Below, in pieces: positions 13,562-57,458 of a stretch of DNA of 64,000 nucleotides. The DNA is from Myxococcota bacterium (GTDB taxonomy: Bacteria; Myxococcota; XYA12-FULL-58-9; JALHOP01): positions 1-64,000 of the forward strand of contig JALHOP010000020.1 in NCBI GenBank assembly GCA_022842935.1. The letters run 5' to 3'. A model generated the notes under the pieces. That model had not been told where the DNA came from, did not search any database, and saw only the letters and a list, made by a program, of their open reading frames with translations. The position numbers and the translations under genes are program-made. Numbering within the stretch: position 1 is the stretch's first letter; each line of letters begins with the position of its first letter.

Positions 13562-13584
13562 GCGGCCCCATCGTGGACGAGGCC

Positions 13585-13775
13585 GGTGTGGCAGGTCTTC
13601 GGACTGGTGAGCGAGCACCGTTGCCGGTGCGCCTACTATCCGCCGCTTCCCGGGTGTTTAGGCCCAGTGCGCGATGGCGGAGGTCGTTCTCATTTACCGC
13701 TGCGGGGCAGTCCCGGAGTCACACCGGGTTCCCTTTCGAAGCTTCCAGCGAACGCCGGAAGCACCACACGGCGCG
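13585..13775 (-). promoter_or_regulatory. Cobalamin (AdoCbl) riboswitch
   Basis: Read on the minus strand, this leader carries the conserved B12-element blocks in order: GGTGCTTCC, AAAGGGAACCCGGTG with the TGACTCCGGG partner, the core ACTGCCCCGCAGCGGTAA, the GCACTGGG ... CCGGGAAG pair, and the closing CAGTCCGAAGACCTGCC. This is the full class-I cobalamin riboswitch layout. It ends about 25 nt before the preferred ATG of the BNR gene, so translational occlusion is the likely mechanism; no U-tract terminator is seen. In known systems cobalamin binding lowers expression of the downstream gene. Confidence 0.92.
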
Positions 13776-13834
13776 GCACGTGCCATAGGCGCCTGGTTTA
13801 GGCAATCGAAACCGTCGAGGCGCCGTGAGCCGCT

Positions 13835-53589: not shown

Positions 53590-53741
53590 TCGCGCACCCT
53601 CTTGTCGCGGCCCAGAAAGACGAAATTGGGCCTTATCGCGAGTATCGGCAGGGTCCCGCCCGAGTTGCGTCCCAAGGCGATGATGCGATGTCGTCTCGAA
53701 CCTTTCGCGGCGACGGGCATTTAGGCTACAAGCCGTGGCCG

Positions 53742-54251
53742 ATGCGGTTGGGCAGCCTTTGCGTTTTCGTCCTGTTCGTGGCGTCAGTTGCTTACGCCCA
53801 GACGACTTTTGTCGGCGCCAAGCGTTGCCAGACCTGCCACGCCTGGGAGTATCAGGTCTGGGCAAAGGGGCCGCACGCAGCCGCGCGGCAGTCCCTAACT
53901 GCCGAGCAGCTCAAGGACGGCAAGTGCAACAGCTGTCACACGATGGTCCCATCCGAGCTCGAGGAGCAGAAGTTTGCGGGTGTGCAGTGCGAAAGCTGCC
54001 ACGGGGGCGGGCGCTACTATTCACCTACCTATGTGATGAAGGACCGCGAGCTAGCGCGGGCGGTCGGGCTCATCGACGCCACGGCCGAACAGTGTCAGCG
54101 CTGCCACAACGATACGTCGCCCTCAATCAAGCCGTTCGACTTCGCCACCATGTGGGCCAAGATCGATCACGGCCGAGCGGCGCGGGAAGCGGCGGCGAAA
54201 CAAGCCGCACAAGAGCAGCACGGTGATGGCCAAGCGACCGCTGGCAGATAA
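53742..54251 (+). CDS. Exported tetraheme cytochrome c (c554-like)
   Basis: A 169-residue periplasmic protein with signal (LCVFVLFVASVAYAQ). Four CxxCH motifs are visible: CQTCH (about 30), CNSCH (about 63), CESCH (about 82) and CQRCH (about 118). Spacing and the GAKRCQTCHAWEYQVWAKGPH opening (part GAKRCQTCHAWEY) are typical of cytochrome c554/NrfB-like electron carriers. ATG 53742 is taken as it starts the signal peptide; its SD is weak. Its 3' end overlaps engB by 26 nt. Confidence 0.9.
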   Translation: MRLGSLCVFVLFVASVAYAQTTFVGAKRCQTCHAWEYQVWAKGPHAAARQSLTAEQLKDGKCNSCHTMVPSELEEQKFAGVQCESCHGGGRYYSPTYVMKDRELARAVGLIDATAEQCQRCHNDTSPSIKPFDFATMWAKIDHGRAAREAAAKQAAQEQHGDGQATAGR

Positions 54252-54885
54252 GAGCTTCGGGCCGAAGCTCGACCCGCGCCTGGCTCCCCAGGGCGAGTCC
54301 GTTGCCAATCTGCCGCCAACGCGCTTCATCATCTCGGCGTCGAAGTCGTCGCAGCTCCCCGAACACGAGTTCCCCGAGTTCGCCATCATTGGCCGCTCGA
54401 ACGTCGGCAAGAGCTCGCTACTTGGCACGCTACTCAAGAAACCTCAGCTCGTACGCACCTCACGTACGCCGGGGCGGACACAACTCCTCAATTTGTTCCT
54501 TTTCGAGAACGCCATCGCGCTGGTCGACTTGCCTGGCTACGGTTACGCGAAGATGTCGAAGGCCCAGGCCTCGTCGATGCAACGCATGATCGCCGACTAT
54601 TTCGCTGAGCGCCGCGGTCTGCACGGTGTTCTTCAGCTCTTCGATGCCCGCCGCGACGGGCCGACAGCGGACGACCTGCGCGTCGCCGAGCACATCATGA
54701 GTCACAAGCGTCAGCTCTTGGTGGTGCTCACGAAGATCGATCTCATCCCAAAGAACGAGCTCAAGAGCCGCACGCGTGCTTTCGAAAAGGCTCTGGGCGT
54801 TCCTCAAGACGCTTCCGTGGCATTCTCGTCGAAGACCGGGGCAGGGAGGGGGGAGCTCCTGGCGACCCTGCGTGAGCTCATCTGA
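54226..54885 (+). CDS. engB: Ribosome biogenesis GTPase EngB/YihA
   Basis: A 219-residue TRAFAC GTPase. G1 is IGRSNVGKSS, the Thr of G2 is in SRTPGRTQLLN, G3 is DLPGYG, G4 is TKID and G5 is AFSSKTG. It is needed for assembly of the large ribosomal subunit. The first 30 residues are an extension over E. coli YihA. Start ATG 54226 is preferred to the adjacent GTG 54223. Its TGA overlaps the next ATG (TGATG). Confidence 0.95.
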   Translation: MAKRPLADKSFGPKLDPRLAPQGESVANLPPTRFIISASKSSQLPEHEFPEFAIIGRSNVGKSSLLGTLLKKPQLVRTSRTPGRTQLLNLFLFENAIALVDLPGYGYAKMSKAQASSMQRMIADYFAERRGLHGVLQLFDARRDGPTADDLRVAEHIMSHKRQLLVVLTKIDLIPKNELKSRTRAFEKALGVPQDASVAFSSKTGAGRGELLATLRELI

Positions 54886-55562
54886 TGCTGGCCGCGGTCC
54901 TGGTCGCTGCCTCGTGCTGCATGGCTCCAGCCGCGAGAGCGGAGAAGGACCCCGTCGCCGCCGCGAAGGGCGCCGTGACTCCCTCGCCGAAGCCGCGCGC
55001 ACCCTTGGATGGTCATCTGGTCGACTGGATCGTCGCGGTGGTCGACAAGGAGGTGGTCACGCGCAGCGAGCTGGTGTCGGAAGCGCGCATCGCGCTCGCT
55101 TACCGGGGCGGCGAAACCTCGGAGGAGGCGGCCCTAGACGAGGAGTTTCTCCGCGACTTCCGAGATTATCTCATCAACCAGATTCTCATCGCCGACCAGG
55201 CGCGGCGGCTCGGCGCAGCCGAGATCTCCGAAGAGGAGGTGAGCGGCGAGCTCGAGCGCTTTGCGGGGGGCTTCCGCTCGGTTGCGGCCTACGAGGCGTT
55301 CCTGCGCCGATACGATATCGCGCTCGAGACCTTGCGGAGCGCGTTGCGGCGTGACCTGCGCAACGCTCGCTTCATCGATCAGCGCATGCGTGCGCGCTTG
55401 TTGTCTTCGGAGGACGACCCGGAGCGCGATGCCCAATACGTCAAGGCGCTCGAGCGCTGGCTCGCTGAGTTGCGCGATACCGCCGAAATCCGGCTGCCGG
55501 GCAAAAACGGTGAGCTCGAGGTGCAGGATGCACGCCGCGATCCGCAACGCGACCGACGCTGA
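54885..55562 (+). CDS. Exported SurA N-terminal-domain protein without PPIase domain
   Basis: A 225-residue protein with a signal peptide (AAVLVAASCCMAPAARA). Residues 45-190 follow the SurA N-terminal chaperone domain: LVDWIVAVVDKEVVTRSELV, EFLRDFRDYLINQILIADQA and a helical segment of SurA type. No parvulin PPIase domain follows, so it should act as a periplasmic chaperone only. The ATG overlaps the engB stop and the end overlaps rimI by 35 nt; translation is probably coupled. Confidence 0.85.
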   Translation: MLAAVLVAASCCMAPAARAEKDPVAAAKGAVTPSPKPRAPLDGHLVDWIVAVVDKEVVTRSELVSEARIALAYRGGETSEEAALDEEFLRDFRDYLINQILIADQARRLGAAEISEEEVSGELERFAGGFRSVAAYEAFLRRYDIALETLRSALRRDLRNARFIDQRMRARLLSSEDDPERDAQYVKALERWLAELRDTAEIRLPGKNGELEVQDARRDPQRDRR

Positions 55563-55974
55563 CGTCGACCGCTTGGTTGCGCTCGAGGGCGCATCGGGTA
55601 TCGCCGAGCGTACCGCTGAAGCGTACAGACATGAGCTCTCGCTCACCTGGTCCCGCGTCCTGGTACTCGAGCTTCCCCACGTTGGGGTGGTCGGCGCCGC
55701 GGTCTATTGGCTCGTCGAAGACGAGGTCGAGCTGCACTGGATCACCGTTCATCCGGAGCACCGGCGACTCGGCCTCGCGCGGAGGCTCCTCGATGCCATG
55801 TGCACCGACGTGCGTTCGCGAAAAGCGCGTCGTGTGCTGCTGGAGGTCCGTCGCGGGAACGACGCCGCCAGGGCCTTCTACCGATCCTACGGTTTTGGCG
55901 AGATCGGAGTCCGCGCTGGCTACTATCAAGCGGACGGTGAAGATGCGATCGTCATGGAGAAGCTTCTCGGATGA
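55528..55974 (+). CDS. RimI-like GNAT acetyltransferase
   Basis: A 148-residue GNAT protein. Acetyl-CoA-binding motif A is visible as HPEHRRLGLARRLLDAM (RxxGxA), with the substrate-side ITVHP and the C-terminal ARAFYRSYGFGEIGVRAGYY of RimI, which acetylates the N-terminal Ala of ribosomal protein S18. ATG 55528 has SD GAGGTGCAGG; a much longer frame upstream is the shadow of the SurA gene. Clustering with engB supports a ribosome role. Confidence 0.85.
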   Translation: MHAAIRNATDADVDRLVALEGASGIAERTAEAYRHELSLTWSRVLVLELPHVGVVGAAVYWLVEDEVELHWITVHPEHRRLGLARRLLDAMCTDVRSRKARRVLLEVRRGNDAARAFYRSYGFGEIGVRAGYYQADGEDAIVMEKLLG

Positions 55975-56069
55975 GTTGCGGTCGCGGATAAGCGAATCGA
56001 AAGAGGTAGCCGCCAAGCGGCTTCGGACCTGGCGGGCACGTTCCCCGCCAGCTTCCCAGCGGGGAGTGC

Positions 56070-57458
56070 TTGAGTAAACGTCCGCCAAACAAAGGCTTGA
56101 GCCCGGGCAAGCAGCCGGGCACGGGTAACCAACCGGTAGGCGCGGAAGCCTTCGGGAAAGACCCCAAGGGCGCGCATACGGGCGCGATGGCCTTTGGCGA
56201 GGGCGACGCGCAGCATCCGCTTCGCGGCGCCTTGTTGTTTGGCAACGATCCCAAGGGCGCGCCGCGCGGCAGCGAGTCGTTTGGCGGCCCCGATGCCAAG
56301 CTTCCGCTGCGGGGCGCGCTACTCTTCGGCAACGACCCCAAAGGCAAGCCGCGCGGCAGCGAGGCCTTCGGCGGGTCCGACACCGAGATGCCCCTGCGCG
56401 GCGCACTGCTTTTCGGTAACGATCCGCAGGGCGGGCCACGCGGCAGCGACGCGTTCGGCAACGATTCCCAGCTCGCCACGGGTTCGGCCGCCTTCGGTGC
56501 TGCCCAGCTCGTCCCCGATCGGCTGTTCAAGGATGCAATCGCCTACGACTTCGCTGGCGTGCTTCTCACGGTTGACACCGAAGGCCTCGCCGGGATCCGC
56601 AAGGACCCGCGCGACCGCGTCCGCGAGCGCGTTGTGTCGGTGCTCGAGCGGCGTCTGCACATTGATCCGCAGCGCCTACGCCATGGACTCAGCGAAGACT
56701 CCGTTCCGTGGGGGCGCATGAAGCGCGATGACGCCATGGACAAAGAGCTCATCGAGCAACTGCGTGCCTGGTGGAAGGTTGCGCCGGGTCATGTGCTGGG
56801 GATCGGGCACGCGCGCGACGTTCTCGAGAGCATGGACCGTATGCATACGTTCGAGTTGCGCTGCGAGTGGGATGCACGCCCAGTCCGCTTAAGCGTACTC
56901 GGCCCGGGCGGTGAGGCGGTCGCCTACGCGGATGGGGCCATCCACAAACAGCATGAGTTCTTGGTGTTCCGCACACCCGAGAAGCTCATCTTTGCTTACG
57001 TCGACATGGTTGTGCCCCGGGAGAACGCCCAGGTCGCGCGGGTGCGTAACGCCGATGGCTCTGCGGTCGGCGCCTTCGAGCTGACTACACCTGCGGTCGC
57101 CGAGTCCGCGACCGGCAAGCGCGTTCAGCTCAAGGGCACCCTGCGCGACGCGCAGGAGCGAGTCGCCTTTCGGCTGGTCGAGGAGCGCAGCGGTCCCAAG
57201 TCGTTCCTCGCTCATTTGCTCGCACCCGACAGCGACGAAAAGGTTGGCCGTATCGAGGACAAGATGTCGGGTGGAAAGATCCGAACCGTCATCGAGGTGG
57301 ACCTCGCGATTCCGCGCCTGCTCACCTGGGCGGTGGGCGCGTTGATGGCGGACCTCGCGCGCTTGCGTCGCGCTGGCTGGCCGGACGTGCCAAGCAGTGG
57401 ACCCGAGGAGCAAGTCGAGTCGATCGAAGAGGCGTTGGGGCCGCGTCGGCGGCGTTGA
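56070..57458 (+). CDS. Protein with 29-residue N-terminal repeats, unknown C-terminal domain
   Basis: A 462-residue protein. The start is TTG after SD GGGGAG. Residues 24-150 are made of repeats: a degenerate copy, then three close copies of a 28-29-residue unit (50-135) with pattern PLRGALLFGNDPKG-x-PRGSE-x-FGG-x-D. Residues 150-240 are helical and charged (RDRVRERVVSVLERRLHID). Residues 260-420 form a beta-rich part (HTFELRCEWDARPVRLSVLG, LIFAYVDMVVPRENAQVARV) that weakly recalls lipid-binding scramblase/LURP-type folds. The end is helical. No signal peptide. Function unknown. Confidence 0.75.
   Translation: MSKRPPNKGLSPGKQPGTGNQPVGAEAFGKDPKGAHTGAMAFGEGDAQHPLRGALLFGNDPKGAPRGSESFGGPDAKLPLRGALLFGNDPKGKPRGSEAFGGSDTEMPLRGALLFGNDPQGGPRGSDAFGNDSQLATGSAAFGAAQLVPDRLFKDAIAYDFAGVLLTVDTEGLAGIRKDPRDRVRERVVSVLERRLHIDPQRLRHGLSEDSVPWGRMKRDDAMDKELIEQLRAWWKVAPGHVLGIGHARDVLESMDRMHTFELRCEWDARPVRLSVLGPGGEAVAYADGAIHKQHEFLVFRTPEKLIFAYVDMVVPRENAQVARVRNADGSAVGAFELTTPAVAESATGKRVQLKGTLRDAQERVAFRLVEERSGPKSFLAHLLAPDSDEKVGRIEDKMSGGKIRTVIEVDLAIPRLLTWAVGALMADLARLRRAGWPDVPSSGPEEQVESIEEALGPRRRR
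56217..56474 (+). repeat. Three in-frame 84-87 bp tandem repeats
   Basis: Units at 56217-56303, 56304-56390 and 56391-56474 (the last is 84 bp) encode the near-identical PLRGALLFGNDPKG blocks. Codon changes between copies show they are not very recent. They keep the reading frame. Confidence 0.88.

Follow-up and report, generated by a model that had tools for sequence, protein, structure and literature searches.

The genomic locus

The window analyzed here, a 64,000-nt stretch of a Myxococcota genome (assembly GCA_022842935.1, contig JALHOP010000020.1, positions 1 to 64,000), contains on the forward strand a gene (56070..57458) that encodes a protein of 462 aa with a TTG start and for which orthologous frames exist. 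By eye, a possible ribosome-binding sequence, GGGGAG (56061-56066), is found at a short spacing from the start codon. The protein combines an N-terminal array of FG motifs with a conserved helical region (aa 180-254; 56607..56831) that is modeled with moderate confidence, a predicted Tubby-like domain (aa 256-434; 56835..57371) that is modeled as 12 strands and ends in a hydrophobic helix, and a conserved C-terminal tail, VESIEEALGPRRRR (57414..57455), with a similar tail present in four of the five members of the family. Inspection by eye of the N-terminus showed no hydrophobic stretch resembling a signal peptide, in agreement with the initial annotation of this DNA.

The FG gene is located downstream of a conserved block encoded on the same strand, namely a gene for a GTPase (54223..54885; PF01926), which we take to be EngB/YsxC, a gene for a protein with a SurA N-terminal domain (54885..55562; 28.5 bits, cut-off 27.2), in which no peptidyl-prolyl isomerase domain was detected at E up to 1, and, directly upstream of the FG gene, the gene for the acetyltransferase RimI (55528..55974; TIGR01575, 97.4 bits, cut-off 86.4, for a search started at 55531; the ATG at 55528 was assigned by eye). 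All eight genomes of the order have these three genes side by side, including three in which the FG gene found no match. The FG gene directly follows rimI in the window and in the genomes G002, G004 and G007 (in the last of these, the two frames overlap by four bases), and is separated from it by two genes in G006. In G001, G003 and G005, other genes follow rimI in place of the FG gene; the one in G003 encodes a transporter, and in G002 a gene judged by eye to be similar lies next to the FG gene on its downstream side, so that a clean gain or loss of the FG gene seems to have occurred at the G003 locus. Given that the engB-SurA_N-rimI block also occurs without the FG gene, we do not draw a functional link to these neighbors. 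No promoter-like site was found between 53400 and 57700.

Ahead of engB, the window encodes a protein with several CxxCH motifs recognizable by eye (53688-54251), probably a cytochrome c; of the seven relatives examined, six have a similar gene ahead of engB. Elsewhere in the window, a cobalamin riboswitch was detected on the reverse strand (13573-13783; 98.4 bits). An origin of the FG gene from mobile or defense elements found no support in plasmids, phages or viral contigs: searches of plasmids and phages with the repeat gave no match (E up to 0.01), no relatives were detected in viral contigs, and PHROGs (E 0.14) and PADLOC (SAVED6, E 0.0088) each yielded only a stray match for a single one of the five members.

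A 29-residue repeat composed of FG half-units

The initial annotation reported an in-frame 29-residue repeat, with three close copies and one degenerate copy, at 56217-56474. The repeat is indeed present there, and the array extends beyond these limits, starting about 90 nt earlier and ending about 30 nt later. It begins with the degenerate unit (unit 1; 29 residues, aa 21-49; 56130..56216), which contains two FG dipeptides, and continues with three close units of 29 residues each, unit 2 (aa 50-78; 56217..56303; PLRGALLFGNDPKGAPRGSESFGGPDAKL), unit 3 (aa 79-107; 56304..56390; PLRGALLFGNDPKGKPRGSEAFGGSDTEM) and unit 4 (aa 108-136; 56391..56477; PLRGALLFGNDPQGGPRGSDAFGNDSQLA), followed by a closing half-unit, TGSAAFGAAQ (56478..56507; up to aa 146), that carries the ninth FG. 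At the DNA level, the interval 56189-56459 holds three copies of a 97-nt repeat with a period of 87 nt (29 codons); a 25-nt core occurs four times, at 56151, 56238, 56325 and 56412. Within the first 150 residues of the protein, there are 59 self-matches at an offset of 29, compared with a mean best value of 19.3 and a maximum of 30 among 2000 residue shuffles, which excludes chance as the source of the 29-residue periodicity. Likewise, the DNA pattern of three FG codon pairs spaced by 42 and then 45 nt has three matches in the window and none in 100 shuffles.

Pairwise identity is 19-23 of 29 residues among the close units and 11-14 of 29 between these and the degenerate unit. Among units 2-4, with about 22 synonymous sites per comparison, pS (0.60-0.62) is far greater than pN (0.13-0.28), indicating that it is the protein rather than the DNA that is kept. 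This bears out the earlier suggestion, drawn from silent substitutions between the copies, that selection acts on the protein, as does the conservation of the array in four orthologs. For the degenerate unit compared with units 2-4, pS (0.39-0.68) shows no clear excess over pN (0.36-0.47).

What the initial annotation missed is that the unit is itself a pair of half-units (14 + 15 residues), PLRGALLFGNDPKG and xPRGSEAFGGSDxx, with one FG apiece. The nine FG motifs are located at aa 28, 42, 57, 71, 86, 100, 115, 129 and 142, with gaps of 14, 15, 14, 15, 14, 15, 14 and 13 residues, and three LLFG motifs alternate with x[AS]FG. All nine Phe residues of aa 1-146 belong to FG motifs, and this region lacks Trp, Tyr, Ile and Cys altogether; in the relatives, Phe falls within FG in 9 of 10, 9 of 9, 9 of 9 and 6 of 6 cases, and their N-terminal parts contain 0-2 Tyr but are free of Trp, Ile and Cys. 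The FG region is about 20% Gly and 11% Pro, and the five N-terminal parts contain 5.1-6.5 FG per 100 residues. Such density is rare in the sequences at hand: among 625 distinct frames of at least 150 residues from 78 records, a sample that over-represents the FG gene, only 6 reach seven or more FG per 150 residues, namely the five members and L064, a locus discussed below, and the next-richest of the 163 frames of the window has four.

Similarity to FG nucleoporins

The initial annotation stated that the unit resembles no known repeat. On the contrary, the motifs are FG repeats, and Nucleoporin_FG (PF13634; curated cut-off, 32.2 bits) is the only Pfam family that matches the window protein at E up to 1 (24.2 bits). 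When the N-terminal pieces were searched alone, all five matched this model at E up to 10 (best E-value, 4.8e-08), that of the window at 3.3e-06 with 28.3 bits, below the cut-off. Among the full-length proteins, four of the five match at E up to 0.01 (24.2, 21.1, 26.5 and 28.9 bits); the fifth has no match at this threshold, and none of the five reaches the cut-off. None of ten shuffled versions of the window piece, including five in which every FG was kept whole, matched at E up to 10, which implies that the signal is carried by spacing and context rather than by composition alone. Neither does richness in FG as such trigger the model: from the second family of FG arrays described below, one of eight arrays matches with an E-value of 0.41 and seven have no match at E up to 1. 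Thus, of the two observations that the initial annotation had named as counting against a new repeat family, a match to a known family was found, albeit short of the curated cut-off, and the other, absence of the repeats from all homologs, was not, given that the homologs keep them.

FG-repeat proteins are defined in PMC8311347 by the presence of at least five FG within 200 residues, a loose definition given that, according to the same paper, 2,863 Swiss-Prot entries fall under it. The window protein, with nine FG in aa 28-143, is an FG-repeat protein in this sense; it is not a nucleoporin. In common with FG nucleoporins (Nup98 with its GLFG motifs, Nsp1), it shows regular FG spacing, Phe only in FG, a Gly-rich composition, low model confidence across the FG region, a strongly conserved array and the sub-threshold match to PF13634. 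It differs from them in being bacterial, in having only nine motifs, in having LLFG and xAFG instead of GLFG, in its charged, mostly net-negative spacers, in the near-identical contexts of its LLFG motifs and in belonging to an organism with no nuclear pore or karyopherins. Compared with the Nup98 type specifically, the confinement of Phe to FG and the lack of Trp, Tyr, Ile and Cys are shared, whereas the depletion of charge, above all of acidic residues, that is described in PMC9918544 is not: 30 of the 146 N-terminal residues are charged (16 basic, 14 acidic), and the net charge of this part in the five members is +2, -6, -5, -4 and -11. The same source characterizes Nup98-type domains as 500-700 residues long, with mostly GLFG motifs and an FG about every 12 residues; in the window protein, LLFG and x[AS]FG motifs recur every 13-15 residues along a region of about 120. 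Its soluble, charged spacers resemble instead those of the regular part of Nsp1 as described in PMC8245513.

The constancy of the LLFG context suggests a different comparison. In the four close members, the LLFG motif is embedded in PL[RK]GALLFGNDP[KQ]G in 12 of 12 units, and this fixed context contrasts with the spacers of FG-repeat proteins, which according to PMC8311347 have no consensus. The array might then consist of short linear motifs recognized by one specific partner, an adaptor or a scaffold, with Phe being one anchor residue and the likeness to FG nucleoporins coincidental. We consider this explanation possible, albeit on balance doubtful, because the array has in common with FG domains that Phe is restricted to FG and that it gives a Nucleoporin_FG signal, which is lost on shuffling, and because the distant member retains FG while the context loosens to PLKG[ST]LLFGQ.

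Distribution and conservation of the FG gene

The FG gene is present in five of the eight genomes of the order and in five of the 195 genomes of the phylum (E up to 0.001 and with the window genome counted in both cases); a single-protein search with the same threshold and count found it in five of 58 genomes. No match was obtained in the remaining three genomes of the order (G001, G003 and G005), indicating that the gene is dispensable there. A search of the order with PF13634 missed the gene of the window itself and thus says nothing on absence. The four relatives are 56% (G007), 54% (G004), 50% (G006) and 33% (G002) identical to the window protein; the first three have nine FG motifs at the 14/15 spacing, and G002 has six at a spacing of 13-20. 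The G006 genome additionally contains, near the end of a second contig (C114:13701-13895), a partial second copy, in which 66 residues match the C-terminal end of the FG protein (49% identity, E 2.3e-14).

Several searches addressed the wider distribution of the repeat. A scan with degenerate patterns for the LLFG context, in which 84,980 species were represented by a single genome each, detected 46 stretches, four of which encode relatives, in the MAGs RA.bin128, RIFOXYA12_FULL_58_15, NC_groundwater_1655_Pr3_B-0.1um_70_22 and Arabian9_MAG_24; these are probably the same assemblies as G007, G006, G004 and G002 rather than extra members. A scan with the single protein detected none of them. Across the 195 genomes, a DNA pattern of four FG spaced by 42, 45 and 42 nt yielded three matches each in G000, G004, G006 and G007, one match each in two further genomes (loci L064 and L065) and none in the fifth member, G002. 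The reversed pattern, used as a control, gave nine matches in six of the 195 genomes, so that a lone match is no more than chance would give, and only the threefold runs are notable. In a permissive search for other carriers of the repeat in the 195 genomes, 16 matches outside the five members were obtained at E up to 0.1, the best with E-values of 3.9e-4 and 5.6e-4; the C-terminal part had no match outside the five members better than E 0.008. At 11 of these 16 loci (L021-L031), the FG-richest frame contains at most four FG in any 100 residues. In L025, one of the 11, a 176-residue frame with five FG runs antiparallel to the repeat match.

The conservation is not uniform along the protein. 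Identity to the window protein in G007, G004, G006 and G002 is, respectively, 68, 61, 63 and 47% in the FG region, 60, 61, 56 and 31% in aa 147-255, and 46, 42, 42 and 22% in the Tubby-like part. Judged by these identities, the FG tail is conserved as well as or better than any other region, which is unusual for a disordered segment; the same oddity, conservation in spite of disorder, is noted for Nup98 in PMC8245513. Recent neutral expansion of a functionless repeat in a linker could be invoked because units within a genome are slightly more alike (22.0 of 29 residues) than units in the same position (20.5) or in other positions (21.2) of different genomes, a hint of some homogenization. Nevertheless, with nine FG motifs retained across approximately 50% protein divergence, pS well above pN and the array conserved above the folded part, such an origin is hardly credible.

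The predicted structure

AlphaFold2 models were built from an alignment of the five members. For the whole protein (mean pLDDT 59.9, pTM 0.54), residues 1-179 have pLDDT below 50, and helices within 180-254, twelve strands in 259-410 and a helix at 416-434 are predicted, with ten-residue mean pLDDT mostly between 81 and 91 in the Tubby-like domain; the model made without the repeats contains the same elements (mean pLDDT 70.0, pTM 0.68). Accordingly, aa 1-146 are predicted to be intrinsically disordered, a prediction that rests on an alignment of five sequences. The alternative that the repeats fold as a small solenoid or a metal-binding array derives from the regular 29-residue period and the Asn-Asp and Ser-Asp pairs. 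With pLDDT below 50 throughout the array and about 20% Gly and 11% Pro, and with no repeat or metal-binding family apart from Nucleoporin_FG matching the window protein, we regard it as very improbable; metal binding, which the initial annotation had suggested testing, also drew no match to calcium- or metal-repeat models of Pfam or NCBIfam at E up to 1.

The C-terminal domain, left unrecognized by the initial annotation, is predicted to adopt a Tubby-like fold. A Foldseek search identified, as the best match among solved structures, At5g01750 from Arabidopsis (1zxu), which we take to be a LURP-one-related protein, with E-values of 2.1e-4 for the whole model and 2.8e-4 for the C-terminal model and TM-scores, normalized by target length, of 0.57 and 0.58. 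This was the only match at E up to 0.001 in each search, and human TULP1 came next (1.6e-3 and 3.2e-3). With VIA-align 2, the whole protein matched Tub, TULP1 and At5g01750 with Z-scores of 12.0-12.4 (next, 7.6), and the C-terminal model matched six Tubby-like entries with Z-scores of 12.0-12.7 and rmsd of 2.9-4.2 (next, 7.8). The structural matches to Tubby-like proteins cover 148-179 residues at 4-12% identity. In these comparisons of predicted models, Tubby and its relatives are the sole clear fold matches for aa 256-434. At E up to 10, none of the five proteins had a match to the Pfam models for Tub, LOR, scramblases or beta-flowers, and the assignment thus rests on the fold of the predicted model. 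Relatives at the level of the fold are often missed by sequence searches. A death-domain reading, based on a phmmer match of aa 184-240 to the pyrin domain of NLRP6 (E 0.023), was dropped because a PDB search with a profile built from all five members gave no match at E up to 5.

The features that the window protein shares with the Tubby superfamily (Tub, TULP1, At5g01750, phospholipid scramblases; CL0395), a 12-stranded barrel and an enclosed hydrophobic C-terminal helix, are seen in both predicted models; the FG tail and the helical region are additions. We know of no architecture that joins an FG tail, a helical region and a Tubby-like domain. In the same clan, the bacterial beta-flowers (PF21784-PF21786) are described in PMC10584680 as often possessing an enclosed C-terminal helix, and as being circularly permuted relative to Tubby with shorter strands; their three models gave no match here. 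According to the same source, Tubby-like proteins bind phosphoinositides or act as scramblases, members of the clan exist in bacteria, and At5g01750 is a putative scramblase.

A tentative model of function

We tentatively propose, fully aware that the proposal may well prove wrong, that the window protein is an anchored cytoplasmic protein of two parts, in which the disordered FG tail docks a partner and the Tubby-like barrel serves as the anchor. Under this model, the N-terminal approximately 146 residues would form a disordered tail that displays nine hydrophobic FG motifs at the 14/15 spacing on Gly/Pro-rich, charged and soluble spacers, and the small helical region would join this tail to the Tubby-like beta-barrel. 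The barrel, itself a predicted fold, would act as an anchor, most likely through a lipid headgroup or a membrane-associated partner. Working by avidity, the many weakly binding FG motifs could hold either a partner that has several FG pockets or further copies of the tail, and would concentrate what they hold at the anchor. The sequences themselves establish the repeat, its period, its conservation and the selection acting on it; the disorder and the Tubby-like fold are predictions, and the cytoplasmic location, the membrane anchoring and the docking by FG are what we infer.

In a rival model, the FG domains of several molecules cohere, in the manner of those of Nup98, into a condensate or meshwork tethered to the membrane. 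The FG density of 5.1-6.5 per 100 residues, the proximity of LLFG to GLFG, the lack of Trp, Ile and Cys, the better conservation of the array compared with the folded part, and the short strands predicted at two LLFG motifs in the low-confidence part of the model all speak for cohesion. However, the window protein has nine motifs compared with about 50 in Nup98, and 30 of its 146 N-terminal residues are charged, with four of the five members being net negative, whereas Nup98 phases are charge-depleted. According to PMC9918544, these phases form only when charge is depleted, and phase separation is lost once each 12-residue repeat carries one Asp. The charged, mostly net-negative spacers thus favor soluble multivalent docking over a Nup98-like gel, and we consider a condensate quite improbable.

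This compact and highly conserved bacterial array with its near-fixed spacing would provide a simple natural system for studying the effects of FG spacing and spacer charge, in a protein small enough to be expressed whole. The predicted Tubby-like anchor on the same chain would tie the FG array to lipid binding, a connection that is directly testable. The array would also show that an FG device can arise outside eukaryotes.

FG repeats are regarded as a eukaryotic device of nuclear pores and some granules. Among the literature matches listed for our searches (titles and the beginnings of abstracts of open-licence papers), we found no report of a bacterial FG-repeat protein, and none of an FG tail combined with a Tubby-like domain in a bacterium. 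PMC2951903 states that no Nup homologs were identified in any planctomycete genome, and the main text of PMC8311347 contains no words beginning with bacteri, prokaryot or archaea. The repeat of the window is a real, conserved and unusual feature.

A second family of FG arrays

The lone match of the four-FG spacing pattern in L064, from another family of the phylum, led to an additional FG-rich protein (L064:3-2408, reverse strand), in which a 656-residue stretch contains 29 FG among 33 Phe. The order of its parts is a PF13717 zinc ribbon (50.2 bits), the FG array and a hydrophobic segment, and the C-terminal part has relatives in all 27 genomes of the genus. Within the stretches of sequence at hand, the zinc ribbon is seen in 11 of 13 loci (11 of 12 genomes; L064, L079-L083 and L085-L089), and each of these 11 also contains an FG array, with 7-29 motifs that account for 54-90% of the Phe in the stretch. 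The typical motif is TQ[TA]FGA (TQTFGA or TQAFGA), and the arrays contain 5.6-8.8% charged residues and 2.9-5.0 FG per 100 residues. The second family is therefore nearer to Nup98 than the window protein in charge, and not in FG density.

The two families are alike in that both are bacterial proteins with an FG array and a likely membrane anchor. They differ in that the domains are unrelated (PF13717 and the hydrophobic segment in the second family), as well as in the TQ[TA]FGA motif and the charge-poor spacers. The existence of the second family makes a recurrent bacterial FG device more likely, and the two families could still be unrelated in function. A broader conjecture, which we consider unlikely, is that bacteria have FG-repeat proteins of their own and that in Myxococcota, FG arrays on membrane anchors (the Tubby-like domain in the window protein, the hydrophobic segment in the zinc-ribbon family) form a selective multivalent docking layer on the inner face of the membrane, employing the FG chemistry of the nuclear pore with an independent origin. 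The genus that carries the second family includes several genomes assembled in one contig and so may be open to genetics.
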